Notes under the pieces: generated by a model
What the model was told of the DNA's origin: nothing
The model's input: the letters and a program-made list of their open reading frames with translations, nothing else
Database searches by the model: none
Made by a program: the position numbers and the translations under genes
Part shown: positions 12,055 through 36,981 of the stretch, in pieces
How the letters are laid out: every line of letters starts with the position of its first letter
Position numbering within the stretch: position 1 is the first letter of the stretch
Source: Eubacterium sp. ER2
GTDB lineage: Bacteria; Bacillota; Clostridia; Lachnospirales; Lachnospiraceae
Direction of reading: 5' to 3'
Assembly (NCBI RefSeq): GCF_000765215.1
Contig: NZ_JPJE01000013.1
Span: forward strand, 1-64,000
DNA length: 64,000 bases

Positions 12055-13008
12055 GTGGAGAATTCATTTAATATTTCATCTTCACCACATATACGTTCCA
12101 AGGTGACCTCCGGCAATATCATGCTCATGGTAGTCATTGCGCTGCTCCCGGCAACCTTCTTCGGAGTGTACAACTTTGGACTGCCCGCCCTGATCATGAT
12201 GGTCAGCACAACGGCGGCTTCTGTGCTTACAGAATTTATCTATGAGAAACTGATGCATAAAAAGGTCACAGTGGGAGACTTCAGTGCGGTTGTCACTGGT
12301 ATGCTCCTTGGATTGAATATGCCGCCCACAGCCCCCTGGTGGATGGGCGCCCTGGGAAGCGTATTTGCAATCCTGATCGTAAAGCAGCTTTTCGGAGGAC
12401 TGGGACAGAACTTCATGAACCCTGCTCTGGGAGCCAGATGTTTCCTTCTGCTTTCCTTCACAGGTCCCATGACAAGCTTCGTCTATGACGGCATCACAGG
12501 TCCGACTCCCCTTTCCTATGTAAAGAGCGGGGCGCTGGATCAGGTGAACACCATGGACATGCTCATTGGAACCATTCCGGGAACCATCGGTGAGACATCC
12601 GTGATCGCCATCGTCATCGGTGCGATCTTCCTGATTCTGATGGGAGTCATCGATCTGCGCATCCCGGGTACATACATTGTAACCTTCGTGATCTTTGTGG
12701 GAATTTTCGGCCATGTGGCACATCCGGAGATCGGATTTTTCGATCCCACCTACCTGACAGCCCACCTGTGCGGCGGTGGCCTTATGCTGGGCGCCTGGTT
12801 CATGGCGACAGACTACGTCACCTCCCCCATCACGAAGAAGGGACAGTACCTGTACGGCATCTGCCTCGGCGTTCTGACCGGCCTGTTCCGTATTTTCGGC
12901 GGGTCTGCTGAGGGCGTCTCCTACGCCATCATCATCAGTAACCTTCTGGTTCCGCTGATCGAGAAGGTTACTCTTCCAAAACCGTTTGGCAAAGGAGGAG
13001 AGAAATAA
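12055..13008 (+). CDS. rnfD: Rnf complex subunit RnfD (FMN-binding membrane subunit)
   Basis: 317 residues, polytopic membrane protein (about 9-10 segments). Starts with GTG preceded by AGAGGAAGAGGTG. The covalent FMN site in RnfD usually lies in a TGAT-type motif; here the equivalent is TGPTPLS with Thr151 as the likely acceptor, so Ala is replaced by Pro. Gene stop and the rnfG start share one base. Works with RnfG, RnfE and RnfA in moving electrons through the membrane. Confidence 0.95.
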   Translation: MENSFNISSSPHIRSKVTSGNIMLMVVIALLPATFFGVYNFGLPALIMMVSTTAASVLTEFIYEKLMHKKVTVGDFSAVVTGMLLGLNMPPTAPWWMGALGSVFAILIVKQLFGGLGQNFMNPALGARCFLLLSFTGPMTSFVYDGITGPTPLSYVKSGALDQVNTMDMLIGTIPGTIGETSVIAIVIGAIFLILMGVIDLRIPGTYIVTFVIFVGIFGHVAHPEIGFFDPTYLTAHLCGGGLMLGAWFMATDYVTSPITKKGQYLYGICLGVLTGLFRIFGGSAEGVSYAIIISNLLVPLIEKVTLPKPFGKGGEK

Positions 13009-34807: not shown

Positions 34808-34870
34808 ATCCTCCATATACTATCGGTGTAACAACAAAACAAAATGTTACAAAAAAGGAGGAGTATAAAA

Positions 34871-35077
34871 ATGACTAATCGTTCATCTAACAAAGCAGCA
34901 GTGCCTGAGGCAAAGGGCGCACTGGACAAATTCAAATACGAGGTGGCAAGCGAGCTTGGCGTACCGCTCACAGACGGCTACAACGGCGACCTGACTTCCA
35001 GACAGAACGGCTCTGTTGGCGGATATATGGTAAAGAAGATGATCGAGCAGCAGGAGAGACAGATGGCCGGAAAATAG
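34871..35077 (+). CDS. Alpha/beta-type small acid-soluble spore protein
   Basis: 68 residues. It coats and protects DNA in the spore. Conserved segments: FKYEVASELGV (containing the GPR protease-cleavage region ELGV preceded by ...YEVAS), GYNGDLTSRQNGSVGGYMVK and KKMIEQQE. Start ATG 34871 has AAAAAGGAGGAG upstream. CATATACTA at 34814-34822 resembles a SigG -10 element, but no convincing -35 partner was found. TGTAACA (34827-34833) and TGTTACA (34845-34851) form a small hairpin in the leader. Confidence 0.93.
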   Translation: MTNRSSNKAAVPEAKGALDKFKYEVASELGVPLTDGYNGDLTSRQNGSVGGYMVKKMIEQQERQMAGK

Positions 35078-35160
35078 GCTGAAAATCCAGCTCAAAACGG
35101 TATCTGAAAAAAAGTGTATCAATACCTGCGAAAATTCTGAAATATGAAACCGAAAAGCGT

Positions 35161-35196
35161 CCGGCAGATTGAAATAATATCTGTCGGGTGCTTTTT
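35161..35196 (+). terminator. Terminator after the SASP gene
   Basis: CCGGCAGAT (35161-35169) pairs with ATCTGTCGG (35179-35187), one G-U pair, then GTGC and five T. Confidence 0.75.
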
Positions 35197-35207
35197 GTTT
35201 ATTCCTG

Positions 35208-35237
35208 TTGACACAATTATGCACCAGTTAGTATAAT
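35208..35237 (+). promoter_or_regulatory. Near-consensus SigA promoter of rsmD-coaD
   Basis: TTGACA (35208-35213), 18-bp spacer, TATAAT (35232-35237); both hexamers are perfect. Confidence 0.8.
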
Positions 35238-35275
35238 TTCAGACGTAATACTTTTTAAAAGTATTACGTCTGAAA
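35237..35275 (+). promoter_or_regulatory. 39-nt perfect palindrome at the rsmD transcription start
   Basis: Arms of 19 nt (35237-35255 and 35257-35275) match exactly around one T. The core reads TAATACTTTT/AAAAGTATTA. It begins in the last base of the -10 box and covers the expected start site, so it could be an operator or, as RNA, a very stable 5' hairpin. No T run follows, so it is not a terminator. It leaves 22 bases to the rsmD ATG. Confidence 0.75.
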
Positions 35276-35297
35276 TGAAGTAAAAGGATGTGATTTC

Positions 35298-35867
35298 ATG
35301 CGTGTGATCGCCGGGACCGCGCGGAGCCTGCAGCTGAAAACCCTGGACGGGCTTGACACCCGTCCCACAACGGACCGCATAAAGGAGACTCTCTTTAATA
35401 TGCTGGCCCCCTACCTCTATGACTGTATTTTTCTGGATCTCTTTGCCGGCAGCGGCGGGATCGGCATCGAAGCCCTAAGCCGGGGCGCCATGGAGGCTGT
35501 ATTCGTGGAGAAGAACCCAAAGGCCATGGCCTGCATCAAGGACAATCTGAAGCACACCCGCCTGGAGCGCAGGGCCCTCACCATCTCCTCTGACGTAATG
35601 ACGGCCCTCTACCGCCTGGAGGGGGAGAAGCAGTTTGACTATATTTTCATGGATCCACCCTACAACAGGGAGCTGGAAAAGCAGGTTCTCACCTACCTGT
35701 CAGAGTCCGACCTTCTGGCCCACCAGGGGGTGATCATCGTGGAGGCCTCCAGGGAGACTTCCTTCGACTATCTGGATGACCTGGGATTTCAGATCATAAA
35801 GGAGAAAGTGTACAAGACAAACAAGCACGTGTTCATAGAGCCGTCAGGGAGGAAAGAGATATGTTAA
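35298..35867 (+). CDS. rsmD: 16S rRNA (guanine-966 N2)-methyltransferase RsmD
   Basis: 189 residues. SAM-binding motif [19 protein letters not shown] and catalytic DPPYN ([10 protein letters not shown]). N-terminal [20 protein letters not shown] and [16 protein letters not shown] are typical. It methylates G966-equivalent of 16S rRNA. Overlaps coaD by seven bases, the usual Firmicutes pair. Confidence 0.95.
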
Positions 35868-36358
35868 GAGCGGTTTATCCGGGCAGCTTTGACCCGGTCA
35901 CATTCGGCCATCTGGACATCATAACCAGATCCGCGAAACTGGTGGACGAATTAATCGTCGGAGTATTGGTAAATAACGCAAAAAGTCCGTTGTTTTCCGT
36001 AGAAGAACGTGTTAAAATACTAGAGAAAACAGTGGAAAATATTCCAAATGTAAAAGTCATTCCATTTGAGGGACTGCTGGTAGAATTTGTGAGAAAAATG
36101 GAAGCGCAGATGGTAGTAAGGGGACTTCGTGCCATTACCGATTTCGAGTACGAGCTCCAGATGGCCCAGACCAACCACAAGCTGGAGCCGGAGCTGGAGA
36201 CGATCTTCCTGACCACCAGCCTGGAGTATTCTTACCTGAGCTCCAGCACAGTGAAGGAAGTGGCCGCTTTCGGGGGAGACATCTCACAGTTTGTGCCTCA
36301 TATCGTGATAGAGCGGATGCAGGAAAAAATGGATAAAAAAGGAGAGTGTAAATTATGA
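35861..36358 (+). CDS. coaD: Phosphopantetheine adenylyltransferase
   Basis: 165 residues. Penultimate step of coenzyme A synthesis. The nucleotidyltransferase motif [14 protein letters not shown] and [20 protein letters not shown] (the ISSTxVR-like motif, with SSST) are present, as is [12 protein letters not shown]. Translationally coupled to rsmD and to the next gene (ATGA overlap). Confidence 0.96.
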
Positions 36359-36981
36359 GCAGCCGTATTGAACAGATTATCGAAGAGATCGAGGAGTACA
36401 TCGACAGTTGCAAATTTCAGCCTCTGTCCACCACTAAGATCATTGTAAACAAGGATCAGATAGACGAGCTTCTCCGCGAACTCCGCATGAAGACTCCGGA
36501 CGAGATCAAGCGCTATCAGAAGATCATTGCAAATAAAGATGCCATCCTGGCCGACGCCCAGGCAAAGGCTGACAGCATGCTCCAGGAGGCCCAGATTCAG
36601 ACATCCGAGCTGGTCAGCGAGCACGAGATCATGCAGCAGGCCTACGCCCAGGCAAATGAGATCGTCACCGCCGCCACAGAGCAGGCTCAGCAGATACTGG
36701 ACAATGCCACAAACGATGCCAACGACATCCGCATCGGCGCCATGCAGTACACAGACGACCTGCTGGCAAACGCGGAGAGTATCATCGGCCACACGCTGGA
36801 CAGCTACACTACCAAATACGACGGACTTGTCAACTCCCTCCAGGAGTGCTACGACATGGTCCGCAACAACCGCTCTGAGCTGGAGATCCCGGATCAGTCC
36901 TCAAGAGGGCTGGAGGCTGAGTACGGCACTCCCGAGGAGCCGGAGGAGGACTACGAAGAGGACGATATAGAGCTGGAGTAG
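36355..36981 (+). CDS. Coiled-coil protein (DivIVA/ATPase-subunit-like)
   Basis: 208 residues. Central coiled coil (about 55-150) rich in Ala, Gln and Glu ([20 protein letters not shown]), an N-terminal region [20 protein letters not shown] and a very acidic C-terminus ([15 protein letters not shown]). Such proteins are often labelled V-type ATPase subunit H or DivIVA-like because of the coil; neither is well supported. Commonly sits after coaD in Lachnospiraceae. The gene overlaps coaD by four bases and converges with ylbJ seven bases away, without a visible terminator. Confidence 0.75.

Follow-up and report, generated by a model that had tools for sequence, protein, structure and literature searches.

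A RAYT-associated palindromic repeat family in Eubacterium sp. ER2 and related genomes, with one copy as the putative promoter of rsmD-coaD

The promoter and palindrome upstream of rsmD

The DNA analyzed here (the window) is a 64-kb stretch of the Eubacterium sp. ER2 genome, in which recG, an alpha/beta-type SASP gene (34871-35077, plus strand, PF00269), a long palindrome, and two further plus-strand genes follow each other. These last two match PF03602 (35298-35867) and PF01467 (35861-36358), and we take them to be rsmD and coaD, respectively. Upstream of rsmD, a -35 hexamer TTGACA (35208-35213, plus strand) and a -10 hexamer TATAAT (35232-35237, plus strand) are separated by 18 nt, and all 12 of their positions agree with the consensus (12/12). 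Four promoter-like sites are found between 34900 and 35400, compared with a mean of 0.6 in shuffled sequences. The palindrome, located by an inverted-repeat search and by folding, is perfect and spans 41 nt (35236-35276), being formed by two arms of 20 nt (35236-35255 and 35257-35276) around one central base; its first two bases are also the end of the -10 hexamer. The sequence-only reading had described a near-consensus promoter followed, at the expected +1 and ahead of rsmD-coaD, by a perfect 39-nt palindrome with 19-nt arms. The promoter, its position directly before both genes and the perfect match of the arms are borne out, and the size had been understated.

By our own estimate, the expectation for a perfect 20-bp palindrome in 64 kb is about 64000 x 4^-20, that is, none would occur by chance. 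Folded as single-stranded DNA, the palindrome reaches -18.3 kcal/mol (z = -8.3), a value equaled by 0 of 200 shuffled sequences. If transcription starts ~6-7 nt past the -10 hexamer, as was assumed for the RNA fold, the mRNA would carry at its 5' end a predicted 12-bp hairpin (35243-35269, plus strand; z of -2.2, mildly better than shuffles, 4 of 200 being as good).

Two candidate explanations were dropped. For a known RNA family, the only Rfam match at gathering score in the 64-kb window is one tRNA, with no family at the palindrome. For a phage origin, megablast of 34844-36360 against phage records gave no match, and two variants of the palindrome core had no exact match in IMG/VR.

A dispersed repeat family and its RAYT-type gene

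Within the window, the core of the palindrome is present as a single copy when up to 3 mismatches are allowed. At the same tolerance, a 25-nt core pattern finds 28 copies in the whole genome and a 29-nt pattern finds 30, and the reversed control patterns find 0 in both cases. The palindrome upstream of rsmD corresponds to the hairpin of this repeat unit, with the core GACGTAATACTTTTTAAAAGTATTACGTC (35242-35270) common to ~30 genomic copies by pattern search and alignment. The alignment of 29 copies from the window's genome reveals a shared core GACGTAAYA...TRTTACGTC and a variable outer stem that often pairs; in the family, perfect arms counted from the center have a median of 16 bp. Moreover, most copies have a one-sided tail, AACTGGTGYRYAATTGTGT, at a near-constant distance from the hairpin, three of them (L048, L053, and L059) being without a recognizable one. 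According to the alignment of copies, the tail of the rsmD unit is AACTGGTGCATAATTGTGT (35211-35229, minus strand). The -35 hexamer and the spacer sit within this tail, the hexamer overlapping its outer end, and the -10 hexamer lies at the hairpin foot.

Among 11 genomes of the genus, six carry the palindrome (the window's genome, G000, and G003, G005, G006, G009, and G010), and the same six have PF01797 genes, a count that includes IS200-like genes; the other five have neither. This co-occurrence follows one clade and therefore does not amount to 11 independent observations. In each of the six palindrome-bearing genomes, one RAYT-type gene lies between two inverted units with their tails inward, and both bracketing units belong to orthology clusters spanning all six genomes. 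The neighbors of this gene in G000, G003, G006, and G010 are presumably kbl-like and M18-peptidase-like genes. In the window's genome, the RAYT ORF (L051:4162-4959) scores 36 bits against PF01797, above the cut-off of 23, and 75.1 against the REP_Tyr_transpos model NF047646, below the cut-off of 80. Its best PDB match is 4er8 (E. coli TnpAREP), with an E value of 0.00097 over a 48-residue stretch including the Tyr motif, and the residues H67, H69, and Y126 are invariant across the six RAYTs. Inverted flanking copies, HUH and Tyr motifs, and dispersed copies with dimers, which are among the features of RAYT-associated repeats in the TIRtron sense, are all found. As a separate observation, IS200-like PF01797 genes, with open frames of 170 and 242 aa, are found ~300 bp or less from palindromes at G003:C2:19701-20376 and G009:C12:173193-173780 (L130, L175).

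The six genomes gave a set of 177 sites, drawn from fetched stretches only and with the own copy C28:41933 left out. The tail side is ambiguous at 26 of these sites, none of them among the 18 close pairs of units, which are all tail-inward; no close pair of another arrangement was found in the set. Six of the pairs enclose the RAYT gene and 12 do not, the units of these 12 being 185-243 bp apart. Two of the gene-free pairs (L058:3896-4170 and L063:3983-4250) are similar in their interior, where a strong terminator-like hairpin lies, and therefore resemble MITE-like versions of the RAYT element. Also, CCGTCATTA-like units form a short tandem array directly beside the palindrome at G003:C95:65868 (L211).

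At E values of up to 1e-15, relatives of the RAYT are present in 39 of 200 genomes of the family, each of another genus. At 29 other fetched RAYT loci, four of them cut by contig ends (L272, L278, L282, and L291) and with flanks partly misplaced, GACG-type palindromes lie within 350 bp in 10 cases and any palindrome with arms of at least 11 bp in 15. The design thus extends beyond this genus. The related palindromes at the other-genus loci L264-L268, L271, L273-L275, and L280 read GGGGACGTAG..., GGGGACGGAGG..., and GGGACGTGTTC..., and GGTGTACC-type tails are seen at L265-L267, RAYT loci of other Lachnospiraceae.

With respect to the neighboring genes, the hairpin side faces a gene end in 22 of the 29 own copies, a gene start in six and an uncalled neighbor in one, and for 20 of the 22 units at gene ends the stop codon is no more than 40 nt away. 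Over the six genomes, the hairpin faces a gene end at 104 of 177 sites, a gene start at 40 and an uncalled stretch at 33. Within the gene-end group, 96 units lie 40 nt or less from the stop codon, and for 9 of these 96 the called frame overlaps the core. This gene context comes from codon-scored frames under a model trained on the window's genome, which left both neighbors uncalled at 21 of the 177 sites, every one of them in G006 or G010. As for the rsmD copy, it falls in the minority orientation class.

This distribution bears on the operator that the sequence-only reading had in mind. In a fuller form of this idea, a regulator dimer bound over the +1 would repress rsmD-coaD and the other copies would form its regulon. 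A perfect dyad at the +1 of a consensus promoter and the many near-identical sites would agree with such a role. However, the genome-wide search finds the core ~30 times per genome, and these sites are not concentrated in promoters, most of the own ones facing gene 3' ends, for which reason the operator was rejected as the main explanation. In addition, the asymmetric tail is conserved together with the dyad, the outer stem varies widely with pairing kept, and inverted copies flank the transposase gene. Overall, an operator is very unlikely.

On the other hand, the proximity of the gene-end units to stop codons would favor a structured 3'-UTR RNA element (an mRNA stabilizer or part of a terminator), of which the rsmD copy would be a 5'-UTR variant, and the G-T intermediates and compensated changes in the stems, described below, point the same way. 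Against it, the hairpin is without a following U-tract in the copies inspected, and Rfam recognizes at gathering score only the tRNA mentioned above. Moreover, such an element does not account for the inverted units around the RAYT gene, the tail-inward pairs, and the empty site presented in the next section. It is thus quite improbable as the primary explanation, and these repeats might have an RNA function in the 3'-UTR as a secondary role.

Stem changes and presence or absence of units

In the 29 own copies, both sides vary at 8 of 18 stem pairs, giving 39 two-sided cells compared with 18.1 in shuffled alignments (0 of 500), and 90.8% of the cells are paired, compared with 84.6% when shuffled and at most 46.7% with the arms slid; the stem structure was drawn from these same 29 sequences. 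Further pair types in these copies (16 versus 14.2 shuffled, 69 of 500) are not significant. A comparison of the same sites between genomes, with 26 orthologous sites of G000 and G009, shows 39 stem positions with compensated changes in both arms, 22 with one side broken, 14 with G-T, 0 doubly broken, and 35 unpaired in both. The sequence-only reading had considered the palindrome to be under selection or recent. The maintenance of arm pairing agrees with the first part of this statement; a recent origin does not fit the rsmD copy because four species have it (G006 and G010 being without it).

The changes also follow lineages. At stem pair 15, G003, G005, and G009 together have G:C in 88 of their 93 copies and never A:T, and the own copies have A:T in 15 of 29 and G:T in 6 of 29. 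Such a lineage-wide shift would fit the co-evolution of an operator with its DNA-binding protein. When 45-nt palindromes are compared between the two clades, the similarity of orthologues (0.730-0.757) is below that of paralogues in one genome (0.790-0.812) and barely above that of non-orthologous copies (0.715-0.745). Within the four-species clade, orthologous palindromes are more alike (0.846-0.941), so concerted evolution holds only across the deeper split and at single stem positions. These comparisons suggest that the repeat family shifts partly in concert. A stronger version would be that the units stay put and are rewritten in place throughout the genome, with one arm or unit being copied onto others either by the RAYT or by hairpin-templated repair, so that the palindromes shift together (an example being the change of stem pair 15 in the window's lineage, from G:C to A:T) and rsmD-type promoters are re-edited, possibly under control of the RAYT. 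We regard this version as improbable.

Perfect pairing could also be kept by templated repair, that is, quasi-palindrome correction, instead of selection, in which case the stem alone would be uninformative on function. In this respect, double changes are clustered within sites in G005-G009 (13 changes at 28 sites, variance/mean 2.2, P 0.001) and in G000-G009 (39 changes at 26 sites, variance/mean 2.0, P 0.003), as correction of this type would predict. However, no clustering is observed in G000-G003 (P 0.35), it is unclear in G009-G003 (P 0.09), and rate differences among sites would produce this signal as well. Also, the one-sided G:T at stem pair 15 in own copies fits a stepwise compensation. 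Templated repair as the cause of the pairing is therefore rather doubtful, and it would complement the reading of the palindrome as a repeat, not replace it. For the upkeep of the stems, selection for the hairpin, templated repair and replacement of units are all possible.

One precise empty site is available for the RAYT-associated repeat. In G010, a unit lies before a gene, and in G006 78 nt are absent at this position, with one extra base, between flanks that are 99-100% identical; this could also be a precise loss. At a second locus, a unit is present directly after a stop codon in G005 and absent from G000, G009, and G003, although other parts of this intergenic region differ too, so that it is not a clean empty site. 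The clean 78-nt site and the less clean G005 locus indicate gain or loss of units, and the clean one is indirect evidence that the transposase may cut and join its repeats. At the latter locus, a different long palindrome with GAGGACGTCC is found in G003 (L298, G003:C60 ~12077-12170), and terminators in G000 and G009. The sequence following the tail junction at the empty sites is CTGT in G006 and CTCTGT in G000 and G009, and neither is seen in G003. In PMC8266576, E. coli TnpAREP is described as cutting at CT dinucleotides; the tail junction would therefore be compatible with RAYT action.

Regarding the age of the sites, 13 of the 54 orthology clusters have members in all six genomes. Many old sites fit a settled functional element as well, and it is possible that independent insertion at the same hot spots underlies the deep clusters.

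The palindromes are themselves targets of insertion in G010. A 1588-bp insert with an 11-nt overlap interrupts the palindrome center at G010:C1:506575-508162 (L255, L256) and at 1389437-1391024 (L251, L253), both palindromes being intact in G006; the first insert codes for a DDE_Tnp_1 (PF01609) transposase. A second insert of ~1.7 kb (G010:C1:1387265-1388984) lies ~440 bp past an interrupted palindrome, and more half-palindromes in this genome (e.g. 2813634 / 2815226) suggest further insertions. REPs are likewise described as targets of IS1397 and of the IS4-family ISRm22 in PMC1525189, whereas the element at the palindrome center in G010 is a DDE_Tnp_1 one in a genome of this same genus.

Comparison with known RAYT systems and origin of the rsmD promoter

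The closest description is that of TIRtrons, or TIRYT (Di Nocera et al. 2013, PMC3733652), in which RAYT-type genes have on both sides long inverted repeats that are not related to GTAG REPs. There, as here, the repeats are sometimes self-complementary and have moderately abundant dispersed copies and dimers. The motif GGGGWSAS of some TIRtron terminal repeats is absent from the 177 units, whereas GGGGACG is present in 53 of them. The terms 'Firmicutes' and 'Clostridi' do not appear in the main text of that paper, figures apart. These features point to repeats of the RAYT-associated kind in the TIRtron sense, without the motif of the GGGGWSAS group.

REPtrons (RAYT/TnpAREP with GTAG REPs, REPINs, and BIMEs) are treated in PMC8266576, PMC2817692, and PMC3116915. 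As in the present case, PMC8266576 describes a domesticated HUH/Tyr transposase, usually single-copy, beside its own hairpin family, with inverted pairs, a mostly intergenic location and, in one group, perfect palindromes. However, a canonical GTAG REP requires GT[AG]G at the 5' hairpin foot, and within 6 nt of the foot this motif occurs in 2 + 1 of the 177 units on the two strands, the background being 2.2% per hexamer. Also unlike REPtrons, the units number ~30 and not hundreds, their perfect arms are long, and the stems are conserved toward the loop and variable but compensated outside.

In PMC6006769, flanking structures without GT[AG]G are described for TnpAY1 class 2.6 and class 3, and for class 2.6 also copies in the host genome, as is the case here; those structures are described as weaker, whereas the present palindromes are long and often perfect. 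The CGTC-tagged REPs of PMC3733652 have CGTC in common with the present family, but there it is unpaired and terminal, on an 8-9 bp stem without a transposase, and here it is paired inside a longer, RAYT-linked stem. Searches of the open-access part of PubMed Central listed nothing that deals with this repeat family in the genus.

At the rsmD locus itself, the unit is present in 4 of 30 cases. Upstream of rsmD in relatives, where the sequence-only reading had proposed to look for it, the motif is found in the sister species G005, G009, and G003, in addition to the window. Both hexamers are identical in these 4 of 4 orthologues (12/12 matches), at corresponding positions of the element, so that a SigA-type promoter of the form TTGACA-16/18-TATAAT is kept at the same gene between species. 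The rsmD loci of G006 and G010 are without the unit and read, by eye, TTGACT-17-TATAAT. For the outer stem, the rsmD copy of the window has CAGACG/CGTCTG and those of G005, G009, and G003 have GGGACG/CGTCCC, paired in all four, and in G003 two positions beside the center are unpaired. Moreover, in G003 the rsmD copy is the right member of an inverted pair, the left one lying directly after the SASP stop codon; in the window, no left partner was found by the core search at up to 3 mismatches.

To put the promoter match in context, the four species have 122 copies, of which 109 passed a filter for the tail, namely the 4 rsmD copies and 105 others. None of these 105 reaches 11 of 12 hexamer positions, six reach 10 and the mean is 7.5. 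Part of the rsmD promoter match is therefore inherited from the element. The simplest account of the rsmD copy would be the exaptation of a promoter-like tail.

Taken together, we consider it probable that the palindrome belongs to a RAYT-associated palindromic repeat in the TIRtron sense, and that the tail of the rsmD copy would have been exapted as the rsmD-coaD promoter, with the mRNA gaining a 5' hairpin. The unit would consist of the hairpin and the one-sided tail (~78 bp, judging by the clean empty site), dispersed and probably non-autonomous. The single HUH/Tyr transposase, encoded between two inverted units, would process them, recognizing the hairpin on single-stranded DNA by analogy with E. 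coli TnpAREP, and would have spread units to many spots directly after stop codons. One unit would have arrived at rsmD with its tail upstream, and in G003 this unit still forms, with an inverted partner, a pair across the SASP-rsmD gap. Then, in the common ancestor of the four species, the promoter-like tail would have been tuned to TTGACA-18-TATAAT and become the promoter of rsmD-coaD. Transcription would start inside the palindrome, leaving the 12-bp hairpin at the mRNA 5' end, which may stabilize or protect this end of the rsmD-coaD transcript.

Finally, in these gut Lachnospiraceae the RAYT-linked repeat family occupies many sites that are orthologous between six species, and gain, loss and stem evolution are therefore traceable copy by copy. 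Both the mode of action of RAYTs and the reason for their retention by the host are stated to be open questions in PMC8266576, and ~30 units with one RAYT would constitute a small and tractable system. The compensated and partly concerted stems are one point of interest; the other is promoter exaptation, for which the rsmD locus offers a concrete case, one copy having apparently turned into the promoter of housekeeping genes.
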